The notes under the pieces: model-generated
Seen by the model: the letters and a program-made list of their open reading frames with translations, nothing else
Database searches by the model: none
Told to the model about the DNA's origin: nothing
Assembly: GCA_028703945.1 (NCBI GenBank)
Contig: JAQVLW010000013.1
Coordinates: 1 to 49,594 of the forward strand
Length of the DNA stretch: 49,594 nucleotides
Source: Aliarcobacter sp.
Lineage (GTDB): Bacteria > Campylobacterota > Campylobacteria > Campylobacterales > Arcobacteraceae
Reading direction: 5' to 3'
Made by a program: the position numbers and the translations under genes
Shown here: piece after piece, positions 13,532 through 28,029 of the stretch
How positions within the stretch are numbered: the first letter of the stretch is position 1
Layout of the letters: each line of letters starts with the position of its first letter

Positions 13532-15481
13532 TTAAGAATTAAAGCTTTCTATTAATTCTTCTAGTTCTAAAAATCTTTCGACTTTTGTTTCATAAATTTC
13601 TTTTGTAGCATCAAGCTCTTGTGACATCGCAACAATGCCTTTTTGTTCATAACATTTTGGGTTCATTAAACAATCATTAATTTCTTCAAGTTTTAATTCT
13701 AAATCTTCAAGTTCTTTTGGTAAATTATCATATTCTCTTTGGTCTTTGTATGAAAGTTTTGTTTGTTTTTTAATAGATGGTGTAACTTTTTCATTACTTG
13801 CTTCTTTTGCTATTTCATTTTCAAGTGCATCTAATTCTCTTAGCTCTTTTTCAATTTCTAAGTATTCACTATATGGTTGGAAACTTTCCATTATATGACC
13901 ATTTCCTTGAAATACAAAAAGTTTTTTTGCTATTTTATCAACAAAATATCTATCGTGAGAAACGAAAATTAAAGCACCTTGGAAGTTTTGTAAATATTCT
14001 TCTAAAATATTAATTGTTGGAATATCTAAGTCATTTGTGGGTTCATCTAAAATCAAACAATCAACTTTTTTTGTAAAAAGTAAGGCAAGAGCAACTCTAT
14101 TTTTTTCTCCACCACTTAAAACACCAACTTTTTTATCAAGATATTCTCTTGGAAATAAGAAGTTTTTTAAGTATCCAAAAACATGCATGTTTCTTCCATC
14201 TTGAAGAACAACTCTATCTCCACCATTTGGACAAAAAGTTTCTAATAAATTTCTTTCATCATCTAAAGATTCTCTTTGTTGATCAAAATATCCAATTTCA
14301 AAATCACCTTTTTTAAACGCTCCACTATCTATTTTCATTTTTTCCATAAAGATTTTTAAAAGAGTTGATTTTCCACTTCCATTTGGTCCAACTATTGCAA
14401 TAGTATCTTTTTGTAAAATCCTAGTTGTAAAATCAATAATTAGCTTTTTATCTCCCAATGCTTTATTTACATCATCAAGTTCATAAAGCATTTTCTTTTT
14501 ATTTTTTTGATTATCATCTGTATTAAATGATTTTTGTTCTCTTTGCAGTTCTAACGACATTTTTCTAATAGCAGCAGGATTTGACCGAGCTTTTTGTTTT
14601 AAATCAAAATACTCTGATTTTCTTCTTTCATTTCTTTTTCTTCTGGCCGTTACACCATGTTGCATCCAATGAGCTTCTCTTTTTACAAGTCTTATTAGAT
14701 TGTCATGTTCTTTTTGCATATTTTCTAAAAGGTGTTCTTTTTGCTCCAAATATGAAGAGTATCCACCATTGAATTTTCTCAAAACTCCACCATCAACTTC
14801 AATAACACTTGTTGCAATATTATCAATAAAGTATCTATCGTGAGAGATAAAAAGTAGGGTAAAATTGTTTTTTAAAAGTAATTGCTCTAAAAATTCAACC
14901 ATATAAACATCAAGGTGATTTGTAGGTTCATCTAAAAGTAAAACATCAGGTTTTTTAAGTAATAATCCAGCAAGACTAACACGTCGTTGTTCCCCACCAC
15001 TTAGAAGATTTACATCTTTAAATTCATACTGTTTTAGTTGGAATTCCACTAAAACTCGCTCAATCATATTGTCCAAATCCCAAGCATCATGAAAGTCAAT
15101 AAAGGTTGCTAATTCACTTTGTCTTCTAATCAAATCTGTATTTTCATAATCAGTTGTAAGACGATTTGTAAGTTCTTCATACTCATTTCTAGCATTTTTT
15201 AATTCAGCTAGTTGATTTTCAATTGCATCTCTTACATTTAGATTATCTTTGAATTTTGGTTGTTGGTCTAGCATCTCAATTTTAAGAGATTTATCAATAG
15301 CCATCTCACCACTATCAGGCTCTGTTTGTTTCATAATTATTTTAAAAAGTGTAGATTTACCTTGTCCATTTTGTCCAATAACAGCAATTCTTTGCCCATG
15401 GTTTAAAGTAAAATTTGCATCTTTTAAAATAACTTTTGTGTCATATTGTTTTGAAATGTTTTGAAGGTCTATTAGTGCCAT
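13532..15481 (-). CDS. uup: ABC-F family ATPase Uup; 5' end is the island insertion site
   Basis: This 649-residue soluble protein has two ATP-binding cassettes: Walker A GQNGQGKST (about 35) and GPNGSGKST (about 365), signatures LSGGEQRR and LSGGEKNR, and Walker B segments followed by DEPTNHLD and DEPTNDLD. The linker between cassettes and a C-terminal coiled coil (about 560-645) match the Uup subgroup of ABC-F proteins, which act on ribosomes or DNA structures rather than in transport. The start ATG lies inside a 29-bp sequence repeated at 25339-25367 and 28001-28029, so the first codons and promoter now in use appear to have come with an inserted island. The coding frame is intact. Confidence 0.93.
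   Translation of the reverse strand: MALIDLQNISKQYDTKVILKDANFTLNHGQRIAVIGQNGQGKSTLFKIIMKQTEPDSGEMAIDKSLKIEMLDQQPKFKDNLNVRDAIENQLAELKNARNEYEELTNRLTTDYENTDLIRRQSELATFIDFHDAWDLDNMIERVLVEFQLKQYEFKDVNLLSGGEQRRVSLAGLLLKKPDVLLLDEPTNHLDVYMVEFLEQLLLKNNFTLLFISHDRYFIDNIATSVIEVDGGVLRKFNGGYSSYLEQKEHLLENMQKEHDNLIRLVKREAHWMQHGVTARRKRNERRKSEYFDLKQKARSNPAAIRKMSLELQREQKSFNTDDNQKNKKKMLYELDDVNKALGDKKLIIDFTTRILQKDTIAIVGPNGSGKSTLLKIFMEKMKIDSGAFKKGDFEIGYFDQQRESLDDERNLLETFCPNGGDRVVLQDGRNMHVFGYLKNFLFPREYLDKKVGVLSGGEKNRVALALLFTKKVDCLILDEPTNDLDIPTINILEEYLQNFQGALIFVSHDRYFVDKIAKKLFVFQGNGHIMESFQPYSEYLEIEKELRELDALENEIAKEASNEKVTPSIKKQTKLSYKDQREYDNLPKELEDLELKLEEINDCLMNPKCYEQKGIVAMSQELDATKEIYETKVERFLELEELIESFNS
15453..15481. 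repeat. Left att-like copy (uup codons 1-10)
   Basis: It matches the middle copy (25339-25367) at 26 of 29 positions and the right copy (28001-28029) at 24 of 29. The identical core AGGTCTATTAGTGCCAT (15465-15481) is shared with the middle copy. Read on the - strand it encodes MALIDLQNIS. Confidence 0.75.
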
Positions 15482-15858
15482 GTATATTTTCTTCTTTCCC
15501 GTATTATAGGCTTTATAGCGTTAAATGTATTGACATGTTTTAGCTTAGTTTTGGATAAAATGTATCCCAATTAACAAAAAAGGTGATACTTGTATCACTT
15601 TTTTAAAAAATGTGTATCCCAAAAAACATGTCTATTACTAAAAATTTATAATTTATTTCTATTTTTGAAGTGGAATACTACTGTAAAATGGGTGTTAAAA
15701 AGCTTAATGCCTATTTTTCGATACATATCAAAACAATGTGATACAAGTTAAATTATGACACATAAAATTTAAACTAAAATATTATTTATTTCCCATTCTT
15801 TTAAGACACCAAAAGCTATAATAAATAATTTTATAAATAACAAGGAATAATCAATAAA
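15482..15858. other. 377-bp non-coding left end of island A, rich in repeated motifs
   Basis: There is no convincing gene. The stretch holds the present uup promoter region (reading left) and the hsdM leader (reading right, with AAGGAA before the ATG). Inverted copies of GACATGTTTT lie at 15531-15541 and 15623-15632. Between them are direct repeats of TGTATCCCAA (15561-15570, 15613-15622) flanking a palindrome. GTGATACAAG recurs at 15738-15747. This arrangement resembles recombinase or regulator binding sites near the end of an integrated element. Confidence 0.5.
15577..15604. terminator. Hairpin with perfect GTGATAC/GTATCAC palindrome (terminator or operator)
   Basis: GTGATAC (15583-15589), TT, then GTATCAC (15592-15598) are flanked by an A-run and a T-run that lengthen the stem. 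It has terminator shape in both directions, but the same half-site recurs nearby, so it may instead be a protein-binding palindrome. Confidence 0.5.
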
Positions 15859-17412
15859 ATGGCAAAACTAAATTTAGAAACACTAGAAAAATGGCTTTGG
15901 GATAGTGCCAACATATTAAGAGGGCATATTGACTCAAGCGATTTTAAGAACTATATTTTTGGTTTAATGTTTTTAAAACGAGCTAGTGACCAATTTTTTG
16001 AAGAAGCAAAAATTGCTGTTGAAAAAGAGGGCATTGATTTAGAAGAAGCCATTGAAGACGAGGATTATCATAGATTTTTTATTCCTAAAAATGCGTGGTG
16101 GAGTGAAATTGCTAAAAAAACTGAAAATATTGGTCAAGCCATAGACCAAGCATTTAGTTCTATTGAAGAATATAACTCTTCTTTAGAGGGAGTTATGACA
16201 GCTGTTCATTTTGGAGATAGTGAGAAACTTCCTGATAGTTTACTTTCAAGACTTTTACAACACTTCAATAAATACTCTTTATCAAATAGCGACCTTGAAA
16301 ATCCTGATATTTTAGGAAACTCTTATGAGTATTTGATTAGACAATTTGCAGACGATAGTGGAAAAAAAGGTGGGGAGTTCTATACTCCAAAAGAGGTAGT
16401 TCAACTACTTGTGCAACTTATCAAGCCAGAGGCTGGAAATAGTATCTACGACCCAACTTGTGGTTCAGGTGGTATGTTAATCGAATCAGCTCACTATATT
16501 GCAAAAAATGGTGGTATGTTAGGTGAATATGTAGATTGTACATTAAAAGGTCAAGAGAAAAATCTAGGAACTTGGGCTGTTTGTAAAATCAATATGATAG
16601 TTCATAACTTCAAAGATAGTGATATAAGAAAGGGCGATACTTTAGGAAGCCCAAAACATATCATAAATGGAGAACTTGAAACATTTGATAGGGTTATTGC
16701 TAATCCTCCATTTTCACTTTCAAACTGGTGGGGAGCTGCTGAAGTTGATATAAAGAATGACGCAAAAGGTAATCCTATAACTCCAAAATACAATGATTTA
16801 GTATCTGACGAATATGGAAGATTTAAGTATGGTATTCCTCCAAGAAGTTATGGAGATTTAGCATTTTTACAACACATGTTAAGTGTGCTTAAGCAAAATG
16901 GAAAAATGGGAATAGTTTTACCCCATGGAGTTTTATTTAGAGGTTCAAGTGAGGGAAAAATTAGAGAAGCACTTTTAAAAGAGGATTTAATAGAAGCTAT
17001 TATTGGACTTCCTGAAAAACTATTTTATAATACAGGAATCCCCGCAAGTATCATAATCATAAATAAATCAAAACCACAAGAACTAAAAAATAAAGTTATG
17101 ATAATAGACGCTTCAAGTGAATACAAAGAGGGTAAAAATCAAAATACTCTAAATCCTGAAAGTATAGATAAAATTGTAAAAGCCTATGAATCAAAACAAG
17201 ATATAGAAAAGTTTATGAGAATAGTTGATTTAGAAGAAATCAAAGAAAACGACTATAACTTAAATATTGCAAGATATATAGATACAAGTAGCGAAGAAGT
17301 AATAATAAATATCGAAAATGTTATAAATAAAATAGCTGATATTGAAGAAAAAGAAAAAGAAATAGATACAAAACTAAATGAATATCTTAAAATTTTAGGG
17401 TTTATTTCATGA
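15859..17412 (+). CDS. hsdM: Type I restriction-modification methyltransferase subunit
   Basis: This 517-residue protein has an N-terminal helical HsdM domain (LEKWLWDSANILRGHIDSSD, FKNYIFGLMFLKRASDQF) and an adenine-N6 methyltransferase domain. AdoMet motif I is DPTCGSGGM (about 197-205) and catalytic motif IV is NPPF (about 282). The target-recognition contact segment GGEFYTPKEVV is also present. It methylates adenine in the recognition sequence and forms the core of the HsdM2S/HsdR complex. The hsdS start overlaps the hsdM stop by four bases (ATGA), so the two are translationally coupled. AAGGAA precedes the ATG. Confidence 0.96.
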   Translation: MAKLNLETLEKWLWDSANILRGHIDSSDFKNYIFGLMFLKRASDQFFEEAKIAVEKEGIDLEEAIEDEDYHRFFIPKNAWWSEIAKKTENIGQAIDQAFSSIEEYNSSLEGVMTAVHFGDSEKLPDSLLSRLLQHFNKYSLSNSDLENPDILGNSYEYLIRQFADDSGKKGGEFYTPKEVVQLLVQLIKPEAGNSIYDPTCGSGGMLIESAHYIAKNGGMLGEYVDCTLKGQEKNLGTWAVCKINMIVHNFKDSDIRKGDTLGSPKHIINGELETFDRVIANPPFSLSNWWGAAEVDIKNDAKGNPITPKYNDLVSDEYGRFKYGIPPRSYGDLAFLQHMLSVLKQNGKMGIVLPHGVLFRGSSEGKIREALLKEDLIEAIIGLPEKLFYNTGIPASIIIINKSKPQELKNKVMIIDASSEYKEGKNQNTLNPESIDKIVKAYESKQDIEKFMRIVDLEEIKENDYNLNIARYIDTSSEEVIINIENVINKIADIEEKEKEIDTKLNEYLKILGFIS

Positions 17413-18662
17413 GTAAGTTGCCTACAGATTGGAAATTCGATACTTTTGAAAATTTAGAAATTCAAATTATTGACGGTGATAGAGGTAATAATTATCCAAA
17501 ACAAAATGAATTTATGCAAGAAGGATATTGTTTATTTTTAAGTGCCAAAAATGTTACTAAACGAGGTTTTGAATTTATTGAAAAGCAATTTATTAGTAAA
17601 GAAAAAGATTCTTTACTTAGAAAAGGAAAATTATCAAAAGGTGATTTAGTATTAACAACAAGAGGAACTGTTGGTAATGTTGCATTTTTTAATGATTCTA
17701 TTAAATATGATAATATTAGAATTAATTCAGGAATGGTTTTGTTAAGAGTAAGGGATAATGTAGATAATCTTTTTTTATATAAAATTATGACTTCTGATTT
17801 TATTCAACAATATATTCAAAATATTGCTTTTGGTAGTGCACAACCACAATTGACAGTAAAAGAAATTAAAAAATTTCAAATTCCTCTTCCTCCCATTGAA
17901 GAACAAAAGAAAATCGCTGACATTTTAAGTACAGTTGATAAAAAAATAGCTTTTGTAGAAGAAAATATAAATGCAACAGAAGAATTAAAAAAAGGTCTAA
18001 TGCAAAAACTTCTCACAGAGGGAATCGGTCATACAGAGTTTAAAGATAGTGAACTTGGTAGAATTCCTGAAAGTTGGGAAATAGTTAAATTAGAAGATTG
18101 TATCATTGGTAAAGGTCAATATGGAATAAATGCAGCCGCAGTTGATTTTAATGAAAAGTTACCTAGATATTTAAGAATTACAGATATTGACGATAGTGGA
18201 AATTTTATTAAAGAAAATTCAAAATCTGTTGATACAACTGAAATTGATACATTTTCATTGAATGAAAATGATATTGTTTTTGCAAGAACTGGAAATACAA
18301 CTGGTAAAACATACCTTTATAATAAAAAGGACGGTGAACTAATATTCGCAGGATTTTTAATTCGATTTACTCCAAATCAAGATATTTTAGATTCAAGATA
18401 TTTAAAATTATATACTGAAACTAGTGATTATTGGAAATGGGTTAAAGTAATGTCAACAAGAACTGGACAACCTGGTATAAATAGTAATGAATATGGAAAA
18501 TTATCTATTAAATTTCCTTCTTTAGAAGAACAAAAACAAATAGCAGAAATTCTTTCAACAGTTGATAATAAACTAGAAAATTTAAAAGAGAAAAAACAAT
18601 ATTTTGAAGAACTAAAAAAAGGTTTAATGCAAAAACTACTTACTGGAGAGGTTAGGGTTTAA
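17409..18662 (+). CDS. hsdS: Type I restriction-modification specificity subunit
   Basis: This 417-residue protein has two target-recognition domains (about 1-150 and 215-370), each followed by a conserved helical spacer. The spacers are near-repeats: EEQKKIADILSTVDKKI ... LKKGLMQKLLTEG and EEQKQIAEILSTVDNKL ... LKKGLMQKLLTGE. This two-TRD layout predicts a bipartite, asymmetric recognition sequence. The repeated spacer DNA (around 17900-18015 and 18520-18645) could allow domain exchange by recombination. It overlaps hsdM by four bases, and fic begins one base after its stop. The target sequence cannot be predicted here. Confidence 0.95.
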   Translation: MSKLPTDWKFDTFENLEIQIIDGDRGNNYPKQNEFMQEGYCLFLSAKNVTKRGFEFIEKQFISKEKDSLLRKGKLSKGDLVLTTRGTVGNVAFFNDSIKYDNIRINSGMVLLRVRDNVDNLFLYKIMTSDFIQQYIQNIAFGSAQPQLTVKEIKKFQIPLPPIEEQKKIADILSTVDKKIAFVEENINATEELKKGLMQKLLTEGIGHTEFKDSELGRIPESWEIVKLEDCIIGKGQYGINAAAVDFNEKLPRYLRITDIDDSGNFIKENSKSVDTTEIDTFSLNENDIVFARTGNTTGKTYLYNKKDGELIFAGFLIRFTPNQDILDSRYLKLYTETSDYWKWVKVMSTRTGQPGINSNEYGKLSIKFPSLEEQKQIAEILSTVDNKLENLKEKKQYFEELKKGLMQKLLTGEVRV

Positions 18663-18663
18663 T

Positions 18664-19728
18664 ATGGAGTTTATATCAAATAATTTACCTTTAGAAATTG
18701 ATATTGAAACAAAAGCAATATTAAAAAAATCAATTTTGGCAAATAAAGCACTTGCAAAATTAAATGGTGTAGCCAAAATCATACCTAATCAAGCTATTTT
18801 AATAAACTCTTTGATTCTACAAGAAGCAAAAGATAGTTCTGAAATTGAAAATATTATAACTACCCATGACGAACTATATCAATCAAATTTGGATATTTCA
18901 AATATTTCCCACGCTACAAAAGAAGTACAAAGTTATAGTAGAGCCTTATTAAAAGGTTTTGATTTGGTAAAAGAAACTTCTTTACTTCTAACTCGACATA
19001 TTGTAGACATTCAACAAGAATTAGAGGGAAATGTTGCAGGTATTAGAAAACAATCAGGAACAGTTCTAAAAAATCAAGCAACGGGTGAAGTAATTCATAC
19101 TCCACCACAAGAAGAATCAACTATACGAAAACTTCTTGATAATCTTGAACAGTATATAAATACAAATGACGGGATAGACCCACTTATTAAAATGGCAGTT
19201 ATTCATTATCAATTTGAAACAATTCACCCATTTTATGACGGTAATGGAAGAACTGGAAGAATTATAAATATTTTGTATTTGGTTTTAAATGAGCTTTTAG
19301 ATTTACCAATTTTGTATTTAAGTAGTTATATTATCAAACATAAAGCTGATTATTACAGACTCTTACAAGAAGTAAGAACCAAAGGAAGTTGGGAAGAGTG
19401 GATTATTTATATGTTAGAGGGAATCGAACAAACAGCAACAAAACAAGTTCAATTAATCAATGATATAAAAAAGTTAATGGATAACACAAAAGAGAAACTA
19501 AAAGCTGAACTTCCAAAGATTTATTCAAAAGACCTTTTAGAAGTATTGTTTATTCACCCTTATACAAAAATTGATATGATAGTAGATAAATTAGAAGTAA
19601 CAAGAAAAACAGCTTCATTATATTTAAATCAATTAGAAGAAATTGGTTTAATGAACGGTGTAAAACTTGGAAAAAGTAAATTTTTTGTAAATGTTAAGCT
19701 TTTTGAATTATTACAAAAAGGTATGTAA
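18664..19728 (+). CDS. Fic-family protein adenylyltransferase with N-terminal self-inhibition
   Basis: This 354-residue protein carries the active motif HPFYDGNGRTGR (188-199), matching HxFx[D/E]GNGRxxR exactly. The inhibitory motif [S/T]xxxE[G/N] is present near the N-terminus as SSEIEN (58-63), so it is a class II Fic protein held off by its own helix. The C-terminal region (about 290-345) looks like a winged helix. Family members transfer AMP to protein hydroxyl groups. It is encoded between hsdS and hsdR, one base after hsdS, a recurrent arrangement in type I loci; whether it modulates the restriction enzyme is not established. Confidence 0.93.
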   Translation: MEFISNNLPLEIDIETKAILKKSILANKALAKLNGVAKIIPNQAILINSLILQEAKDSSEIENIITTHDELYQSNLDISNISHATKEVQSYSRALLKGFDLVKETSLLLTRHIVDIQQELEGNVAGIRKQSGTVLKNQATGEVIHTPPQEESTIRKLLDNLEQYINTNDGIDPLIKMAVIHYQFETIHPFYDGNGRTGRIINILYLVLNELLDLPILYLSSYIIKHKADYYRLLQEVRTKGSWEEWIIYMLEGIEQTATKQVQLINDIKKLMDNTKEKLKAELPKIYSKDLLEVLFIHPYTKIDMIVDKLEVTRKTASLYLNQLEEIGLMNGVKLGKSKFFVNVKLFELLQKGM

Positions 19729-19831
19729 AAAATGAAAAAATTTACCCATGAGAATAAGTATATGTGTAAAAAATGAAAAAAATTACCCATATAAAAAAGA
19801 ATATGTTGAAAAAATAGAATAATTTACCTAT
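19722..19831 (+). repeat. Three degenerate tandem repeats of about 40 bp
   Basis: Three units begin TATGT, run through an A-rich middle and end TTACC(C/T)AT: 19722-19749, 19761-19790 and 19802-19831, with start-to-start spacing of 39 and 41 bases. The first overlaps the fic stop codon. They fill the gap between fic and the DUF3800 gene. Confidence 0.6.
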
Positions 19832-19861
19832 GAAAATATTAGAATAAAGGCTTAGAAAAAT

Positions 19862-20560
19862 ATGAAATTTAATGTATTTTGTGACGAAACATTACCTGAT
19901 TTATTCACAACTTCAAAAGATAGTGATAAAAAATTATTGATTGGTAGTTTATGGATAGAAGCTGAATTAAGAGAAGAAATTAAGCAAGATATTAAAAAAT
20001 TAAGAGTTGAACATAATGTTTGGGGTGAAATTAAATGGTCAAAAGTTTCAGCCTCAAAAGAAGCTTTTTATTTAGATTTAATTGATTTGTTTTTTTCTTA
20101 TGGTATGCAAGTAAGATTTAGGTGTATTGTAGTAAATCCAAAACAAATAAATTGGTCTTATCATGAAAATGATAAAGAACTTGGATTTTATAAATTTTAT
20201 TTTTTTGTTTTAGATAAATGGATTAAAAATTTTAATGAGTATTCAATTTTTTGTGACGCAAAGGTAAATAGAGATTTATCAAGATTGAATAAACTTCAAG
20301 AAATATTGGAAATTTCAAATAGAAATTCAAATATTGAAAGAGTTCAGGCTTTACCTTCAAAAGAAGTAGTTCTTATTCAATTATCAGATTTTTTATTAGG
20401 TGCAACAAGTAGTAGAATCAATAATATTGAACATACAAATAAAGCAAAAATAAATGTTATAAACAGATTGGAAAAACATTTAGCACATAAAATAGAACCT
20501 ACAACTATGGGTGAAAATAAATTTAATGTATTTGCAATACAGCTAAATGGTGGTTGGTAA
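19862..20560 (+). CDS. DUF3800 protein
   Basis: This 232-residue protein opens with MKFNVFCDET, the acidic DE pair typical of DUF3800, followed by an E-x-K-W segment (GEIKWSKVS, about 55-63), FCDAKVN (about 136), and a late QLSDFLLGA helix (about 175-183). DUF3800 proteins are predicted to have an RNase H-like fold and are common in defence islands and prophages, but their biochemical role is not settled. The gene lies between fic and a frameshifted ORF whose ATG overlaps its stop codon by one base (TAATG), suggesting the two were once a translationally coupled pair. Confidence 0.8.
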   Translation: MKFNVFCDETLPDLFTTSKDSDKKLLIGSLWIEAELREEIKQDIKKLRVEHNVWGEIKWSKVSASKEAFYLDLIDLFFSYGMQVRFRCIVVNPKQINWSYHENDKELGFYKFYFFVLDKWIKNFNEYSIFCDAKVNRDLSRLNKLQEILEISNRNSNIERVQALPSKEVVLIQLSDFLLGATSSRINNIEHTNKAKINVINRLEKHLAHKIEPTTMGENKFNVFAIQLNGGW

Positions 20561-20998
20561 TGTTACCTCCTTTTGTAATATAAAAATCATTTTGAAAAAG
20601 TATATTGTAAAACTCCAACATTAACATTTGACGGGATTAAGGTATTTTTCTCAAAAGATAAATTTGAACATGCTTTTTTTGAAAGCACTAAAAGAAATGG
20701 AGTTAAAGATATTTTTTCAGAGGAACGAGCTAAAAGAATTGATTGGATAAAAGCAACTCTGGAAAATCCAAAAGCTGATTTATACCAAGGTTGGGATAAG
20801 GATTCAAAAAGATATTTTCCTCATAGAAGAGTAAGTGTTGTATTTGGTGATTTTGCTGTTATTATTGGATTGAGTTTAAATAAAAATGGTGAATTAAAAG
20901 GAAATTTTATTACTTGTTATGAAGCAAACAGTAGCATAGGTAAAATAAGAACTTCACCAATTTGGGATAAAGAAAAATGTTTGGATTATTTAAAATGA
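20560..20998 (+). pseudogene. Frameshifted nuclease-like ORF coupled to the DUF3800 gene
   Basis: An ATG overlapping the DUF3800 stop begins MLPPFVI and then hits a stop. A second frame, open from 20579 to the TGA at 20996-20998, has no usable start but reads as a real protein (YCKTPTLTFDGIKVFF, KADLYQGWDKDSKKRYFPHR, VVFGDFAVIIGLSLNKNGEL, FITCYEANSSIG). Joining the frames near 20575-20585 gives one protein of about 145 residues. The late segment (E/D-rich start, PHRR, GDFAVI, CYEANS) loosely resembles small RelE/barnase-like nuclease domains found at the ends of phage and toxin proteins; that is a weak guess. It is either a decayed gene or one needing ribosomal frameshifting. Confidence 0.6.
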
Positions 20999-21304
20999 AA
21001 GAATTTCGGTCGCTGATTTGCTACGCTGGCACTGCGACCCAAGCCTCGATAGATTCAACTTTCGATAGATAGTGAATTCAAATTGCATTATAGTTGTATT
21101 AATATTAAAAATCTATTAAACTCTACTCCAGCCAGCTTGAATCAGAGGCAATCCCTACTCATAATCTTCGGGTGATACTGGAGCTTATTATTTTAAGTCG
21201 CCCATAAGGCAGGACGAAATGCCACTTGTAAAAAGTAAATACTTTTTCCTACCCCTATAATATAGCTTTGATAGGTCAAGAGTGAAAGTATTACATATCA
21301 ATAA
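20999..21304 (+). ncRNA. Non-coding, GC-richer, hairpin-rich stretch: candidate structured RNA
   Basis: I see no gene here. The composition is visibly richer in G and C than neighbouring DNA. Potential pairings include GGTCGC (21008-21013) with GCGACC (21034-21039), CTCCAG (21126-21131) with CTGGAG (21178-21183), and GCC...GGC around 21200. A direct repeat TCGATAGAT occurs at 21046 and 21062. A terminator-like hairpin closes the region at 21230-21247. This pattern suggests a transcribed structured RNA or a remnant of foreign DNA. I could not match it to tmRNA, RNase P, SRP or 6S RNA. Confidence 0.35.
21230..21250 (+). terminator. Terminator-like hairpin ending the GC-richer stretch
   Basis: AAAAAGTA (21230-21237) and TACTTTTT (21240-21247) form a perfect palindrome followed by pyrimidines. 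It would work in either direction. Confidence 0.5.
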
Positions 21305-21465
21305 TTAAAGAGTAGTTAAAATAGATTTATAGTGTTCTTTTAGTTCTTCTTTAGTTGTTTTAGAATTTTCAACTTTAATAGAACTATAAACAGCATTTAC
21401 TATCATTTTTTTTTCTTTTTAGCAGTAGAAAAGTATTTATTAGTGTTACTTATGGTTTTCTTCAT
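21305..21465 (-). pseudogene. Small ORF split at an A9 homopolymer
   Basis: On the - strand an ATG at 21465 encodes MKKTISNTNKYFSTAKKKKK and then stops. The stop overlaps (ATGA) another ATG at 21406 that encodes MIVNAVYSSIKVENSKTTKE and 13 more residues, ending at 21305. The junction is a run of nine A's, so one indel would fuse both parts into a basic protein of about 53 residues. Neither part has a strong ribosome site. It could be a phase-variable gene, a decayed gene or chance. It lies divergent to hsdR, whose leader it occupies. Confidence 0.35.
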
Positions 21466-21507
21466 AAAAAACATTGTATATTAAATAGAATCAATAAAGG
21501 ATAAAAT

Positions 21508-24495
21508 TTGAGCCAAACACCTGAATATTTATATAGTGAACTTCCAGCCATTGAGCTTTTTAAAAAACTAGGATTTAATTACTTTGACGGTTCTATTGCA
21601 GATACTAGAGAATCAATTAATGAAGTTATTTTAGAAGATAGATTAAGACAAAGTTTACTAAAAATAAATCCATGGCTTCAAAATAATACTTTAGAAAAAG
21701 TTATCAGAAAACTAAAAAATATTCAAGCTTCAACTCTTATGGAAGCAAACCAAATTGTATTCGATTTTATCACAAAAAAAGATTCTATTACTGAAAAACC
21801 AACTCCTGAAGCTAAACCACAACCTGTTTTTATAATTGATTATGAAAATATTGAAAATAATGATTTTTTAATAGTTAATCAAATGAAATATCAAGGAATT
21901 CATAAAAACTCAATTCCTGATATAGTAGTTTATATAAATGGCTTACCTTTGGCAATTATCGAAGCAAAATCTCCAAAAGTATCTATTACTGACGCTATTA
22001 GTGATATAGGATACTATCAAGAAAATTCTCAAAAGCTTTTTTACTATAATCAAATTTGTATAGGTATGAATAAAGGAAAAGCACTTTATGGAACTATTGG
22101 TTCACAATTTGCCCACTACTCAAAATATAAACTAGAAGATACAAAAGAGCTTGAAGAGTTAGTTGAAAGAACTCCAACAGCTCAAGATATTTTGATTTAC
22201 TCATTGTTTAAAAAAGAAATGTTGCTTGATATTATTAGAAACTTTACAATTTTTGAAATAGACCAAGGAAGAACAATAAAAAAACTTCCAAGATACCAAC
22301 AACTAAGAGCAGTTAATAAAATCATAGATAGATTAAAGACTGAAAATAAAGGTGGTGTTGTTTGGCATACGCAAGGTTCAGGAAAATCTATTACTATGGT
22401 TTACCTAGCTACGAAACTTCGAAGAGAAGAAGCAGGGTTTGATAATCCAACTATTTTAGTTGTAACTGATAGAATAGATTTAGATAATCAAATAAGCTCA
22501 ACTTTTAGAAGAACTGGATTTTCTAATCCAATTCAGGCAGTTAGTATTTCAAACCTAAAAGAGCTTTTAAAAGATTCTTATGGAAAAACTCTTATGACAA
22601 CTATTCATAAGTTTCAAGAGAGAGCTGAAGAGCAAAAAGAAGAGATAGAAATACTAAGTGATAAATCAAATGTATTTGTATTGATTGACGAAGCTCATAG
22701 AAGCCAATATGGCATGACAGCTGCTTATATGAGAAACTCATTACCAAATGCAAAGTTTATTGCATTTACAGGAACACCAATTGATAAAGAACAAAAATCA
22801 ACTCTTAGAACTTTTTATGGTGGAAGTGATTATATTGATAAATATACAATCAAACAATCAGTTGAAGACGGTAATACTTTAGCTATTCGATACCAAACAG
22901 GAATGCCTGAATATTTTATAGAAAAAGATTTAATGAATGAAGTATTTAGCTCTGTTTTTGGTCATGAAAGTGAGGAAAAACAAGCAAAGCTAAAATCAAA
23001 AGCAGCTTCACTTGATACTTTTTTAATGGCAAAAAGAAGAGTAGAAGAAATCGCAAAACATATACTTAAACATTTCCAAGAAAAAATCTATCCAAACAAT
23101 TATAAAGCAATGTTAGTGTGTCACAATAGATACCAAGCAATAGCTTATCAAAAAGCATTTTTAAAACTAAAAGAGCAAGGACTTAACTCTTTTGAATCAA
23201 AAGTTATCATGAGTTTTGATAATAAAAAAGATCCAATTGAATTTAGAGAACTAGCAGTTGAAGAAGATAAGATTAAAAAAGCAATTGAAGAGTTTAAACT
23301 TCCTTTTGGAAATGAAAATGAGAAATCAAAAAGCGGTGAAAAAAGATTTGATAATACAGCTATTTTAATTGTTTCAGATATGCTTTTAACTGGATATGAC
23401 GCTCCAATAGTTCAATGTATGTATATTGATAAACTATTAAAAGAACATACACTTTTACAAGCAATAGCAAGGGTAAATCGTACAAAATCAGGTAAAGAAT
23501 ACGGTTTAGTTGTTGATTATGCAGGCATTACAAACTATTTGACAGAAGCTTTAAAAATCTTTAGTGGTGATTTAGAAGCCCAAGACGTTATGACAGATAT
23601 TGAAAATGAAAAAACTATTTTAGAAAATAGACACTCTAAAATGGTTGCATTCTTTAATGATATAAAAATTGATAGATTTAAAGATAGAGCTAAATTCGTG
23701 GACGAATGTGTTTTATACTTAGAACCTGAAGATTTAAGGGATAAATATATTGATTTAGTAAAACTATTTAATAAATCAATGGATATTGTTTTACCTGATT
23801 CTTTTGCCACAAAGTTTGAATATGATTTAAAACTTTATAATGATATTAAATTAGAAGCTGTAAATACCCATACACCAGAAAAAATGTTTATTACAAGAGA
23901 AGAAACTAAAAAAATTCAAATGATAATAGACGAGCATTTAAGAGCTACTGGAGTTTATTATTTATTACATGAGGCTATTGATATAACAGACCCTGAAGCT
24001 TTTAGAAGAGAGTTAGAAAATAAAAGTGGTAAAACAAAAGAGCTTACAATTGCAAATAGAATAAAACATACTATTCAAGCTAATAAAAAAGAGAATCCAG
24101 ACTTTTACAAAGATATTGCAAAAAGACTTGAAGAGTTAATCAAAGCAAAAGAAGAAGATAGAATCACTCAAGCTCAACTTTTAATAGAGTTTGACAAGCT
24201 TCAAGAAGAGATTAGAAATTCAAAAGAAGAATGGAAAAGATTAGGACTTGCCTCAAAAGAGCAATTCCCAATATTTAAAACCCTTGAAAAAGTTGTTCCA
24301 AACTCAAAAGAGTTTACTATAGCAGTTTTTGAGAAAATTGGTATGTATCTTCAAAAATCAGATTGGAAAGACCATGACGATATAAAAAAAGAGATTAGAA
24401 AAAATATAAAATCACTTTTAAGAAATAATGGTGTTGATAAAGAATTAGTTAATTCATTACCAATTACTATATTAGAGATTTTAGAAAATCAATGA
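21508..24495 (+). CDS. hsdR: Type I restriction enzyme motor/nuclease subunit
   Basis: This 995-residue protein starts at a TTG with AAAGGA six bases upstream. The start residues SQTPEYLYSELPAIELFKKL match the usual HsdR N-terminus. The nuclease domain shows PDIVVYINGLPLAIIEAKS (about 136-155), the PD-(D/E)xK core. The translocase has Walker A HTQGSGKS (about 286-293), DEAH in LIDEAHRS, TGTPID, and a late helicase motif ARVNRTKSG. It cuts unmodified DNA after translocation together with HsdM/HsdS. It is separated from hsdMS by fic, the DUF3800 gene, the broken ORF and a 500-bp non-coding stretch, so it probably has its own promoter. Confidence 0.95.
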   Translation: MSQTPEYLYSELPAIELFKKLGFNYFDGSIADTRESINEVILEDRLRQSLLKINPWLQNNTLEKVIRKLKNIQASTLMEANQIVFDFITKKDSITEKPTPEAKPQPVFIIDYENIENNDFLIVNQMKYQGIHKNSIPDIVVYINGLPLAIIEAKSPKVSITDAISDIGYYQENSQKLFYYNQICIGMNKGKALYGTIGSQFAHYSKYKLEDTKELEELVERTPTAQDILIYSLFKKEMLLDIIRNFTIFEIDQGRTIKKLPRYQQLRAVNKIIDRLKTENKGGVVWHTQGSGKSITMVYLATKLRREEAGFDNPTILVVTDRIDLDNQISSTFRRTGFSNPIQAVSISNLKELLKDSYGKTLMTTIHKFQERAEEQKEEIEILSDKSNVFVLIDEAHRSQYGMTAAYMRNSLPNAKFIAFTGTPIDKEQKSTLRTFYGGSDYIDKYTIKQSVEDGNTLAIRYQTGMPEYFIEKDLMNEVFSSVFGHESEEKQAKLKSKAASLDTFLMAKRRVEEIAKHILKHFQEKIYPNNYKAMLVCHNRYQAIAYQKAFLKLKEQGLNSFESKVIMSFDNKKDPIEFRELAVEEDKIKKAIEEFKLPFGNENEKSKSGEKRFDNTAILIVSDMLLTGYDAPIVQCMYIDKLLKEHTLLQAIARVNRTKSGKEYGLVVDYAGITNYLTEALKIFSGDLEAQDVMTDIENEKTILENRHSKMVAFFNDIKIDRFKDRAKFVDECVLYLEPEDLRDKYIDLVKLFNKSMDIVLPDSFATKFEYDLKLYNDIKLEAVNTHTPEKMFITREETKKIQMIIDEHLRATGVYYLLHEAIDITDPEAFRRELENKSGKTKELTIANRIKHTIQANKKENPDFYKDIAKRLEELIKAKEEDRITQAQLLIEFDKLQEEIRNSKEEWKRLGLASKEQFPIFKTLEKVVPNSKEFTIAVFEKIGMYLQKSDWKDHDDIKKEIRKNIKSLLRNNGVDKELVNSLPITILEILENQ

Positions 24496-25193
24496 TTGAA
24501 TCTATTGATTATGGAACTCAAATAATAGAGTTTGAAGTTCAAAGAAAAAAAGCTTGTAAAAACACATATATTACAGTTGAACGAGATATTGGAGTAGTTG
24601 TAAAAACAAATACAGATATTTCAATTGAAGAGCTTAAAACTCTAGTAAAATCAAAAGCTAAATGGATTTTAAAAAAGTTTGAAGAAATAGGGCAATCAAT
24701 AGATTATGGAAAAATAGTAACTGGTTCAAGACTTTTTTATATGGGTAAAAGCTATTATATAGAGCTTTTAAAAGAGGATAGAATTGATTATAAAATAGAG
24801 TTTATTCACTCAAAATTTATAATAACAACTCCTTTAAATGCTGAACAAACAAAAATAAATGAAACTATTGAAGAGTTTTATAAACAAAAAGCCGAAGATA
24901 AAATCACTAAATTAGTAAATAAATATAGTGATATTATGAAACTATATCCTGTAAAACTATATTTTAAAAACTCTAAAACAAAATGGGCTAGTTGTTCTGC
25001 CTCTAATAAAATATCTTTTAATCCCGAAGTTATGAAGTTAGCCTCTTCACTAATTAAATATGTAGTTATTCATGAATTAGCTCATATCCAATATAAAAAT
25101 CACTCTAAAGATTTTTGGAATCTAATTAAAAAATATATGGGTGATTATCAAAAGAAAGAAGAAATTTTAAGAGGCTTTGAGAAAAAGCTTTAA
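24492..25193 (+). CDS. YgjP-like (DUF45) zinc metallopeptidase linked to hsdR
   Basis: This 233-residue protein has the zinc site HELAHIQYKNHSKDFW (HExxH plus a downstream His) near its C-terminus and the NSKTKWASCSA segment typical of the YgjP/SprT-like DUF45 family. The start overlaps the hsdR stop by four bases (ATGA), so translation is coupled to the restriction subunit. Such peptidases are frequent riders in type I loci, and a role in HsdR turnover has been a natural suggestion, but I know of no proof. A second family member is encoded at 30926-31519, outside the island. Confidence 0.9.
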   Translation: MIESIDYGTQIIEFEVQRKKACKNTYITVERDIGVVVKTNTDISIEELKTLVKSKAKWILKKFEEIGQSIDYGKIVTGSRLFYMGKSYYIELLKEDRIDYKIEFIHSKFIITTPLNAEQTKINETIEEFYKQKAEDKITKLVNKYSDIMKLYPVKLYFKNSKTKWASCSASNKISFNPEVMKLASSLIKYVVIHELAHIQYKNHSKDFWNLIKKYMGDYQKKEEILRGFEKKL

Positions 25194-25227: not shown

Positions 25228-25311
25228 AAAACTACCCGTGTGATACAAAATTTAATTAAATTAGAAAATAGACCTATTTATGTAAAATATTTGAAGCTGT
25301 AAGTTCGATAT

Positions 25312-25367
25312 ACAGGTGTTTAGAGGAATAAATTAATAGACAAGTTTTGTAGGTCTATTAGTGCCAT
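25312..25367. repeat. Middle att-like copy
   Basis: Positions 25339-25367 match uup codons 1-10 (26 of 29). Positions 25312-25338 match the extension of the right copy (26 of 27). On the - strand it encodes MALIDLQNLSIN before a stop. The arms ATAGAC and GTCTAT form an imperfect inverted repeat around the centre. Confidence 0.7.
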
Positions 25368-25915
25368 TTGATTTTATATACTCCCATAGAATGGTGTTTA
25401 ATTTATATAATTAGTAGTTATGTAATTCCTTAAAATTAACTTTTTGATGTCATACTTTTATGGAAAATACTTTTTTGTGTCATATTTTTTAAAATATGTC
25501 ATATTCCCATATCCATACATAATTTCTAATTTTTTTAAGTGAGGATTATATCTAAAATATAGTTACATACTCATTTTAATTTTTTGCTACACACCAGAAG
25601 AAAAACTTACTTTTACTCTTTCCTTTAAAAATTTATGAACACTTTGTTAGTTGGCTTTTTCTTTCATTTCATTCTATTAGATTAATTTACTGATACTAAA
25701 ATTAAATTATCACTAGTTCCAATTTCAATTTTATTCTAAGCAAAAATCTAATCATTACAATCTATAAAAAGCCCGACAACTAATGAAAGTGAAAAATTTT
25801 TGATTAAAGAAAAGAGATAAGTTTTTTTAATCTTCTTAAAAATTAAAAAAGAAGAGATAAAGACAAACCCTCGAATCTTCAAAAATGAAAACTATTTTTT
25901 AAAAGGAAAGAAACA
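25368..25915. other. 548-bp AT-rich non-coding stretch at the left end of island B
   Basis: I see no gene. TGTCATA occurs three times (25448-25454, 25478-25484, 25497-25503) in a T-rich context. A copy in the opposite orientation lies near the left end of island A (15754-15760). Further on, TTAGTTG-GCTTTTT (about 25648-25661) can pair with AAAAAGC..CAACTAA (about 25768-25785). The stretch ends with AAAAGGAAAG, the ribosome site of the J-domain gene. Confidence 0.4.
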
Positions 25916-26380
25916 ATGACAAGAGAACAAATTATAAATGAGTTTAAAGGTGTTGAAGGAATCAATGAAGCTAAAAAGATTTACAAAAATCTTGCTAAAA
26001 AATTACATCCTGATGTTGGTGGAAGAGAAGAAGAATTTAAAATTTTAAATTCTGTATATACTGATTTAATAGAACATAAAATCTATTTTTCAAATGATAT
26101 TAAAATAGATATTGAACTAGAAAAAATCATTAGTTTAATTTTACACTTTGAAAATATAACAATAGAATTAGTTGGCTCATGGGTATGGGTTTCAGGAGAT
26201 ACAAGAGAAATCAAAGAAAAACTTAAAGAAATTGGTTTCAAATGGGCATCTAAAAAGAAAATGTGGTATTTTGGAGAGATGAAATCTAAAAATCCAACTC
26301 CAAAAAGTATGGAAGAAATAAAAAGTAAATACGGAAGTGAAACTTTGAAAACTAAGGAGAAAAAAGAGATAGCAAGTTAA
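25916..26380 (+). CDS. Small J-domain protein with C-terminal mobile-element domain
   Basis: This 154-residue protein has an N-terminal J-like domain with the diagnostic KKLHPDVGG (HPD, about 36-38) in helix II-loop context (EAKKIYKNLAKKLHPD). The C-terminal part, WVWVSGDTREIKEKLKEIGF then KWASKKKMWYF (about 85-120), is a short domain often seen on plasmid and phage proteins. It may recruit Hsp70 (DnaK) for element functions, but no partner is evident. AAAAGGAAAG provides a strong ribosome site. It converges on the GNAT gene across a shared hairpin terminator. Confidence 0.8.
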   Translation: MTREQIINEFKGVEGINEAKKIYKNLAKKLHPDVGGREEEFKILNSVYTDLIEHKIYFSNDIKIDIELEKIISLILHFENITIELVGSWVWVSGDTREIKEKLKEIGFKWASKKKMWYFGEMKSKNPTPKSMEEIKSKYGSETLKTKEKKEIAS

Positions 26381-26393
26381 AAACTTGTTATCT
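26367..26393. terminator. Bidirectional terminator between convergent J-domain and GNAT genes
   Basis: AGATAGCAAGTT (26367-26378) pairs with AACTTGTTATCT (26382-26393) with a single G-U pair and a 3-base loop. It overlaps both stop codons. Confidence 0.8.
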
Positions 26394-26908
26394 TATAGAT
26401 TAAATACCATCCAATCTTCTGCTTCTTTAGAGCCACTTCCTTGAATTGTTTGGAAGCCGTAAGATTTGTAAACTTCTCTTATTTCATCTGTTGCAGGAGT
26501 TAATGCAACGGTATTTATAGCAATTTGATTTTTTATAGTTTCTCCAATAGTTAAAACAACATAATCAATAAGCAAATATTCAGAAAGTTTAATATTTCCA
26601 AGTTCTTGAAAAAGAATTTTTCTATATTCTTTTTCAACAAATAGAAATTCAATATCAATACTTACAATATCATCAATATCTGTAGTAGTTCCAATATTTA
26701 AAAGTGCACAATATTTTTGCTCTTTTACATCAAAACACACATGAATAACATTTGTAAATGAAACATCATCTTGATTGTAACAAAGTTCTAAAGTGCCATT
26801 AAATATTTCTTTAAGTTTTGGATAATCTATATTTGGTTTATATGTTTGAAAGAAAGTTGAGAGTTCAGAACTTTTTATAACTTCGATTTTAAATCTATCA
26901 TTATTCAA
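26393..26908 (-). CDS. GNAT-like N-acetyltransferase, possible toxin of a two-gene module
   Basis: This 171-residue protein starts at a TTG whose TTGA overlaps the stop of the small upstream gene, so translation is coupled. The middle (IDDIVSIDIEFLFVEKEYRK) and the end (TPATDEIREVYKSYGFQTI) follow the GNAT plan: a strand, the acetyl-CoA loop region, then a late helix with Y-x-x-x-GF. The pyrophosphate loop is degenerate. GNAT toxins in other toxin-antitoxin systems acetylate aminoacyl-tRNA. That activity here is only suggested by size, coupling and the small basic partner. Confidence 0.65.
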   Translation of the reverse strand: MNNDRFKIEVIKSSELSTFFQTYKPNIDYPKLKEIFNGTLELCYNQDDVSFTNVIHVCFDVKEQKYCALLNIGTTTDIDDIVSIDIEFLFVEKEYRKILFQELGNIKLSEYLLIDYVVLTIGETIKNQIAINTVALTPATDEIREVYKSYGFQTIQGSGSKEAEDWMVFNL

Positions 26909-27054
26909 GCTACTGAAAACTCTCTTCTTTTTTTAGCTTTTTCAATTATCTCTTTTTGTTTTTGAGTTTGTGTAAAAACAACTTTTCTATCAGATCGAGA
27001 TAAAACTACTTTTTTTGCTTTTTGGATTGTATTATCTTTTATAATATATCCCAT
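26905..27054 (-). CDS. 49-residue basic protein upstream of the GNAT gene (possible antitoxin)
   Basis: Starting at the ATG at 27054, it encodes MGYIIKDNTIQKAKKVVLSR and 29 more residues, very rich in Lys and Arg (QKQKEIIEKAKKRREFSVA at the end). GGAG lies eight bases before the ATG, a good ribosome site, and the stop overlaps the GNAT start as TTGA. It could be a small DNA-binding antitoxin or a leader peptide; it does not look like a ribbon-helix-helix protein of usual length. The promoter upstream lies inside an inverted repeat, suggesting autoregulation. Confidence 0.65.
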   Translation of the reverse strand: MGYIIKDNTIQKAKKVVLSRSDRKVVFTQTQKQKEIIEKAKKRREFSVA

Positions 27055-27075
27055 AGTTTACTCCTTATTGTTTTT

Positions 27076-27106
27076 TGATATGGTAATTATACAATATTTT
27101 ATATCA
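27076..27106 (-). promoter_or_regulatory. Promoter with flanking inverted repeat for the small protein/GNAT pair
   Basis: On the - strand TATAAT (27086-27091) lies about 30 bases before the ATG. TGATAT (27076-27081) and ATATCA (27101-27106) form an inverted repeat around it, an arrangement typical of a repressor operator overlapping the -10. Confidence 0.5.
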
Positions 27107-27131
27107 GAATTTAGAAAAAGTATTTAATTTA

Positions 27132-27977
27132 TCATTTTTTTGAAAAATTAAATATATCCATAATTAATTTTTTATTTATGTCTGAAATATCACTTGCTTT
27201 TTTAATTGAAGATATTGGACCTAAAATATCTTTTATAGTTCGAATTTTAGTAATTGAATCCATTCTATATGTTTTATCTTTAATTTCAATAATAGGATAG
27301 AAATCTTTTTTCTTTTTGCCAGTGATAATTTCAAGTAATGACAGAACTCTTATTATATCTTCCCTAATTCTATCAATAGATTTTTTAGTACAATCTTCTT
27401 TAAAAGTATAACAGTTAATAATTATTTGATCAATAAATTCAGTTTCAATAGTTTCTTTATTATCATGTAAAATTGCATTTAAAACATCTCTAAAAGCATT
27501 ATGCCTTATATTTTCTGTAAATTTTTCAGCTGGTAATTCCTTGTATTTTGCACCATCTTTATAATCATTAATCAATCTATATAATCCATCTTTTATATAC
27601 TCTTTTATTCCTTTTAAATAACCTTTATATAAATTATTTCTAATTTTGTAAACTATACTTTGTCCTGGATTTGGATGCATTGTAGTATCTTGCAAAAATG
27701 CAAACATACCATCTTGTAATAATAAAAAGAAATCTTCAATAAGTTGTATTACACATTTTTTTAAATCTTCTAATTCATTTTTATTAAAATTGATTTTGTT
27801 ACTTTTTTCATCAATTAGATAGATAGGATTAACTTTTTTATTTTTAAAAACACCTATTTCATGAAGAAATTCTGAAATACTTTTTTTATCAATTAATAAA
27901 TCTTTTTTCTCATTTACTTTATTACAGATATTTATATAAATATTTTTTCTTAATTCTTTTTCTAAAGATTTTGACAG
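27132..27977 (-). pseudogene. 5'-truncated gene of unknown function abutting the right att copy
   Basis: An ATG at 27707 gives 191 residues, but the frame stays open upstream to a stop inside the att repeat (28017-28019) and reads like protein throughout (SKSLEKELRKNIYINICNKV, KNKKVNPIYLIDEKSN, NELEDLKKCVIQLIEDFF). There is no ATG, GTG or TTG in that upstream part, only a CTG at 27977. I infer that the gene lost its 5' end at the recombination site. The product is helical and Lys-rich, with no motif I recognise. A shorter protein could still be made from 27707, though no clear ribosome site is seen. Confidence 0.6.
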
Positions 27978-28029
27978 GTGTTTAGAGGAATAGATTAATA
28001 GACATGTTTTGTAGGTCTATCAAAGCCAT
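27974..28029. repeat. Right att-like copy
   Basis: The extension (27974-28000) matches the middle copy at 26 of 27 bases. The core (28001-28029) matches uup codons 1-10 at 24 of 29. On the - strand it reads MALIDLQNMSIN before a stop. The following bases (28030-28055) resemble those just upstream of uup (TATATTTT.TTCTTT), as expected if this is the original uup upstream region. Confidence 0.7.

Follow-up and report, generated by a model that had tools for sequence, protein, structure and literature searches.

The repeat block at positions 15530-15747 of the window, by which is meant the whole 49,594-nucleotide (49.6-kb) stretch of Aliarcobacter sp. DNA that was analysed, very probably forms the left arm of an attachment site, attL, belonging to a genomic island that integrates in a site-specific manner, as judged from the sequence and its comparison with related genomes. 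The island has two ends and a repeated core, the layout of its ends is shared with related islands, short words are common to both ends, a recombinase gene lies beside the right end in relatives, and the word GTATCCC occurs beside homologous recombinases in sister islands at msrA.

The gene to which the island is joined encodes a product whose top NCBIfam model is Uup (1.5e-153, 512 bits, with the curated cut-off of 900 not reached) and whose closest matches, in Aliarcobacter/Arcobacter records, are 94-96% identical, the best being that of Arcobacter caeni RW17-10 (96%), which gives good support to a host from the Arcobacteraceae. Since the first uup codons recur at 25340-25367 and 28000-28029, two tandem islands, A and B, are recognised (Table 1), each bounded by copies of the target-site core (starting at 15455, 25340 and 28000), as is a genomic island moved by a tyrosine recombinase. 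Sequence resembling the region upstream of uup in empty relatives begins, by eye, 3' of 28029, and unoccupied sites exist among relatives in the form of 61 uup upstream loci picked by eye as being without the repeat block.

Table 1. Positions of the features of the uup locus and of islands A and B in the window.
Feature	Position	Strand	Basis or remark
uup (ABC-F ATPase), target gene, whose start codon adjoins the island	13532-15481	-	NCBIfam Uup and Arcobacter caeni RW17-10 match
attL core AATGTTTTGAAGGTCTATTAGTGCCAT, the first codons of uup	15455-15481	.	Repeated at 25340-25367 and 28000-28029
Left satellite TTGACATGTTTT, a core-like half-site at +76 from the core start	15530-15541	+	Kept at +66 to +76 in relatives
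Arm site TGTATCCCAA	15561-15570	+	Word common to msrA islands
Palindrome GTGATACTTGTATCAC, probably an inverted pair of arm sites	15583-15598	.	Motif scores 5.6-6.3, under the 6.5 threshold
Arm site TGTATCCCAA	15613-15622	+	Aligned with TATGTCCCATAA of G001
Inverted satellite half-site, ATAGACATGTTTT on the - strand	15623-15635	-	Kept behind arm sites in relatives
Distal arm site GTGATACAA	15738-15746	-	Motif score 10.2; AATGTGATA aligns with G001 left end
Cargo of island A: hsdM, hsdS, Fic, DUF3800, hsdR, YgjP-like metallopeptidase	15859-25193	+	
Right-end arm site GTGATACAA	25240-25248	-	Motif score 12.0; aligns with G001 right end
Right satellite half-site TAGACCTAT, 2 mismatches, -74 from core	25269-25277	+	
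Core copy, island A right end and island B left end	25340-25367	.	
Island B	25368-27999	.	Left end with three TGTCATA words at 25448, 25478 and 25497
Core copy, island B right end	28000-28029	.	

No match to the relatives' recombinases was found by tblastn in islands A and B, and elsewhere in their own genome there was a single weak one (E 1.8e-4, contig C66); relaxase and conjugation genes are likewise absent from the Pfam matches. With attL and attR kept and no integrase found, the two islands look like integrase-less tandems of the cis-mobilizable element (CIME) kind, a class that, together with tandem accretion, is defined for ICE and IME families (PMC5704250). The likeness to that description lies in the retained ends and att sites and in the presence of two islands in one site, and the islands of a relative, G096, are likewise in tandem; the difference is that the recombinase was not found in the genome that carries A and B, and their mobilisation is putative. 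The right end of island B holds no match to the half-site or to the arm motif described below, and B may on that account be the more decayed of the two; its left end carries the three TGTCATA words as direct repeats (25448-25503).

An earlier note on this DNA had described an ordered set of repeats at the left end of island A; every word that it named was found in its place. The same note took the half-sites to match the att core: an inverted pair of GACATGTTTT is present (15532-15541 and, inverted, 15623-15632), but of the core TAGACA(A/T)GTTTTGTAGGTCTAT the word represents the left half only. The word TGTATCCC has two copies in the window, both inside the block, and TGTATCCCAA has nine copies in the 2.33-Mb draft genome, of which the window is contig C14, versus two for a reversed-pattern control, the remaining seven genomic copies being single and, by eye, probably within genes. 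Perfect palindromes of the grade of GTGATACTTGTATCAC (arms of 7, spacer of up to 4, 3 or more GC) occur at four places in the window, GTGATACTTGTATCAC among them, and comparable inverted pairs were seen by eye in G083, in G425 and in the msrA islands. The direct repeats, the palindrome arms and GTGATACAA look like variants of a single site of ~9 bp; in island A both TGTATCCCAA and both GTGATACAA sites exceed the 6.5-bit threshold of the motif for that site, which the palindrome arms fit weakly.

Related ends were gathered by a DNA search of 104 family genomes and retrieval of their uup stretches. Islands between two cores at the uup start are present in G001, G083, G055 and G096. Left ends of this type occur in G098, G075 and G090, with a second one in G096, and in G425, from a different family within the order, about 25 kb separates uup from a right-end core. 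Eleven left ends, islands A and B included, and seven right ends were compared. The half-site TAGACATGT, allowing up to two mismatches here and in its inverted form, stands at +66 to +76 from the core start in 10 of the 11 left ends (G425 is without it), the inverted half-site follows the arm sites in 8 (missing in B, G001 and G090), and a half-site lies 70-83 bp before the core in 5 of the 7 right ends (missing in B and G425). Half-site words with up to two mismatches number 38 in 2090 bp of left ends versus 51 in 11,590 bp of empty loci (4.4 per kb). Those 61 loci are a selection made by eye, from which island loci, possible remnants or unclear cases (G054, G002, G068, G067 and G034), repeat fetches and the second uup contig of G041 had been excluded. 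Across 83 unselected uup loci, repeat fetches included, a half-site with at most one mismatch was found at +65 to +84 in eight, all from genomes with island ends (G096, G083, G090, G098 and G075), and at least two arm sites were likewise found in eight, seven of them island loci from five genomes and the eighth a locus of G053 (L040) that has no half-site; G001 was unclassed in this run because its right-end core scored best. Among 36 named uup contigs at least two arm sites occurred in three, again matching G075, G098 and G096.

Both ends of island A resemble those of G001, with 91 of 106 aligned bases identical before the right core and 179 of 274 at the left. The two carry different cargo, and a G001-like element that had its integrase replaced may therefore be the source of island A. 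The two left ends of G096 lie in tandem at uup (L077 478-5322 and onwards), the second being 83% identical to the left end of G098 over 172 bp. In G041, two contigs with uup starts (L038 and L039) have upstream sequence that is identical for ~140 bp and then diverges, which may reflect gene duplication or a mixture of strains.

The earlier note had likened the repeats to recombinase or regulator sites, a proposal supported by the layout kept in related uup islands and by the presence of GTATCCC at the two ends of msrA islands whose integrases are homologous. Of the two readings, 'recombinase' is the better fit, since the sites stand next to the crossover at either end while the neighbouring genes differ. 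A regulatory account would have a dimeric repressor of the type I restriction operon bind the palindrome and half-sites as its operator. The block does lie upstream of hsdM (15859), the arm motif is nearly palindromic like the operators of dimers, and a possible regulator, a protein with a WYL domain and an HTH match under the threshold, is encoded by the first gene of the G001 island. Such an operator is nonetheless improbable: the layout is unchanged beside other cargo (TOTE-type genes in G001, a HEPN protein in G055 and unknown genes in G083), arm or half-sites also stand at right ends beside the integrase, and no ORF of at least 90 aa lies between the block and hsdM.

The attachment-site reading is further supported by a motif found de novo. 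Expectation-maximisation on 10 left blocks, from which the second G096 left end (G096b) was excluded because it is 83% like G098, gave GTATCATAC(A), an arm site of ~9 bp, with a log-likelihood ratio (LLR) of 95.1 compared with a mean of 45.9 (sd 7.5, maximum 67.5) in 60 equal-seed shuffles. In scans at 6.5 bits, with both strands counted in every set and near-palindromes thus counted twice everywhere, matches number 54 in 1650 bp of left ends (32.7 per kb, 10 of 11 ends, all but G096b being training data) and 10 in 805 bp of right ends, which were outside the training set (12.4 per kb, 4 of 7 ends). The corresponding counts are 27 in 9150 bp for the 61 empty uup loci (3.0 per kb) and 137 in 52,500 bp for the interiors of six islands (2.6 per kb). 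At this threshold no match is seen in three right ends (B, G096a and G425) or in one left end (G425). In the seven two-ended elements, the true left-right pairing has the top summed best shared word of the left and right arm regions, to which shared base composition may contribute, beating the other 5039 of 5040 permutations. For G083, G055 and G096a the best shared word is a half-site; for A and G425 it is an arm word, for G001 a word near the core, and for B an AT-rich run. In the pairing, the right ends belonging to A and to B each come third of seven. When 40 random interior segments were taken for each of six elements, none reached its own value in G001, G083, G055 or G096a, two did so in G425 and 11 in island A. 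The recurrence of GTGATACAA at 15738 and 25240 that the earlier note had singled out is real in that both copies are present, but the return of TGTGATACAA at the far end of island A is not significant by itself, given these 11 of 40 interior segments that match equally well.

Beside the right end in relatives, and reading inward, lies a gene for a protein of 676 aa in G001 and 719 aa in G083 (33% identical), which is split in two frames in G096 and is a fragment in G425. Neither the G001 nor the G083 protein has a Pfam or NCBIfam match above a cut-off, and the latter has a sub-threshold match to Phage_int_SAM_4 (0.003). At 1e-10, a search of the family found homologues in 9 of 104 genomes, three at uup (G001, G083 and G096), five at msrA (G012, G013, G015, G065 and G093) and one beside tRNA-like sequence as judged by eye (G023); sister islands, five of the six at msrA, are recognised by homologues of 22-25% identity. 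The active site of tyrosine recombinases is R..K..HxxR..H..Y. In the alignment an R, a K, a second R and GH are common to the members and a Tyr follows, by eye, and the HxxR position reads FHDLR or FHGLR in the msrA group and RSFR or RSLR in the uup group (three uup-type sequences covering it); Phage_integrase is matched by 3 of 10 members. In a model predicted from 10 sequences (mean pLDDT 64.3), the catalytic part agrees at ~3-4 Å with known folds, the 40 best rows of the structure comparison being tyrosine recombinases or type IB topoisomerases. Residues 429-641 align with a Cre-type structure at Z 10.8 and 3.5 Å over 172 residues, on a scale where, according to the aligner, Z values up to ~13 can be background for helical models; the corresponding values are Z 10.2 and 3.2 Å over 152 for the lambda catalytic core and Z 7.0 and 3.0 Å over 85 for the lambda core-binding domain. 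Foldseek returned no match to this model under E 0.001, and an AlphaFold model from two sequences only was unusable (pLDDT 35.6). The predicted catalytic fold indicates that the relatives' protein, intact in G001 and G083, is a divergent tyrosine recombinase. Integrase scans of GTDB contigs and IMG/VR with a two-row alignment found no relative, the peptide patterns missing even the G096 contig within the GTDB set; tblastn in plasmids and phages gave no recombinase match, and samples of 397 and 398 genomes from the phylum and the order yielded only G083 and G425 at 1e-20.

The target of the sister islands is msrA (Pfam PMSR 2e-57 in G012 and 4e-58 in G093). In G012, G013 and G015, counted as one lineage because their integrases are 94-95% identical, each end carries three or four copies of GTATCCC (in shuffles the mean is 0.008-0.020 and the maximum 1 of 500), an inverted GTATCCC/GGGATAC pair is present at the left end, and GGTGTTTA stands at +79 and -64. 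G065 has two GTATCCC at each end, although the contig that holds its left end is unlinked and was assigned by us, and G093 has no GTATCCC and instead carries TGTGACCCA or TGTAACCCA twice at both ends; the GTATCCC repeats are thus found at the ends in four of five msrA-island genomes, three of which are the one lineage. This word lies inside the TGTATCCCAA of the window. The earlier note had proposed comparing the left ends of uup islands for conserved motif order, and there the layout is kept, but the exact word GTATCCC occurs in none of the 10 other uup left ends.

A protein of the Replicase/PriCT type (375-377 aa) is common to the G083 uup island, the msrA islands and the G023 contig, with about 59-74% identity over aligned parts and 61-74% where matches are full-length (L035 11028-12155, L119 7648-8778 and L137 198-1331), which hints at replicating integrative elements or satellites. 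Were this Rep-like protein to bind the direct repeats, the block would be a set of iterons or an origin, a possibility to which the sub-threshold HTH match of the G083 copy would also lend itself. We give it little probability: the G001 island and the window have the sites yet no Rep match, the repeats sit at both ends beside the core, and the words of G083 and G093 differ (GTATCGTA versus TGTGACCCA) despite Rep proteins that are ~73% identical. This difference in words, together with the presence of both sites and integrase in G001, favours the integrase over Rep as the predicted binder of the arms.

The palindrome, with its A and T tails, might alternatively be a bidirectional low-GC terminator between uup and hsdM. 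Its fold on the + strand (-10.4 kcal/mol, z -4.35) is equalled by none of 200 shuffles and that on the - strand (-7.5) by 10 of 200. A consensus scan, which requires GC pairs, finds no terminator there, several relatives have, by eye, direct or widely spaced copies that form no hairpin, and the half-sites and right-end copies would be left unexplained; as an account of the block a terminator is very unlikely, and terminator activity could be a side effect of the palindrome. That the repeats are a chance product of AT-rich DNA is hardly credible even at the 27% GC of the window and with a left-right word in island A that is not significant alone, because motif and layout recur in relatives and the 218-bp block has six GC-containing 8-mer repeat pairs versus a shuffle mean of 0.27, with none of 2000 dinucleotide shuffles reaching six, which upholds the repeats that the earlier note had noticed. 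The palindrome by itself is reached by 14 of 2000 such shuffles, and 3 of 988 218-bp windows along the sequence attain six pairs, none of the three with a palindrome.

If the block is the left arm of attL, a tyrosine recombinase would recombine at the core TAGACATGTTTTGTAGGTCTAT, which overlaps the first uup codons, and integration would rebuild the uup start. In a circular element, further copies of the core's own left half-site would lie ~70-80 bp from the core to either side, and arm sites of ~9 bp, TGTATCCCAA/GTGATAC in the element of island A, would also flank it on both sides. The arms would probably bind the N-terminus of the recombinase, or an excision factor, and fold the DNA into a synaptic complex. 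The exact crossover, the integrase as the protein that binds the arms, the folding and the excision are steps that we infer from the arrangement of the sites. Islands A and B would then be fixed, or movable only by an integrase arriving with a related element.

The attP site of lambda contains core-type and arm-type integrase sites. The uup islands resemble it in that their core is flanked by repeated short words and the relatives' recombinase has predicted core-binding and catalytic parts; they differ in having repeated core-like half-sites in the arms, in arm words that are frequently palindromes, and in a recombinase whose first ~280 residues have no assigned fold. SXT integrates in the 5' end of prfC and restores the gene. 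The uup islands likewise replace first codons, and 5 of the 11 island left ends, as well as 28 of 61 empty loci, contain a uup-promoter-like pattern, which in the islands lies ~200 bp inward; unlike SXT, the targets are uup and msrA, and the pattern was not found in the other six left ends, island A included, so that the idea of a uup promoter behind the arms has partial support only.

An attachment site is ordinary in principle; new to us are the target genes, a recombinase below Pfam cut-offs and the half-site satellites. Judged by listings, nothing relevant was found in the literature on uup as an integration site for genomic islands, integrases or mobile elements, and titles and abstract starts on Arcobacter/Aliarcobacter islands or recombinases contain nothing on uup islands. 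A broader proposal, which we offer tentatively and would sooner doubt than assert, is that an unnamed lineage of tyrosine recombinases (RxxR for HxxR in the uup branch, and a long N-terminus), with repeated core-like half-sites on both sides of the core and arm words changing in step at both ends, targets the 5' ends of housekeeping genes (uup and msrA) and spreads defence cargo on integrase-less islands whose working ends could be moved in trans by a relative's recombinase. The short arm and half-site words would provide a usable signature of island ends even after loss of the integrase, and recombinases under Pfam cut-offs with end words that vary between elements would form a natural series for the coevolution of integrase and arm specificity.

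The arm and half-site words also point, in this group, to the starts of uup and msrA as hot spots where defence-type cargo is inserted. PADLOC gave no match on ten island proteins. Other uup islands carry a WYL protein with genes of the TOTE-conflict-system type (G001, L034 947-6924) and an LA2681-like HEPN protein (G055, L045 10573-12072), on the strength of which uup may be a defence hot spot. Within the cargo of island A, the gap of ~0.95 kb between DUF3800 and hsdR (20561-21507 of the window) contains no ORF of at least 90 aa and may hold gene remnants or RNA.
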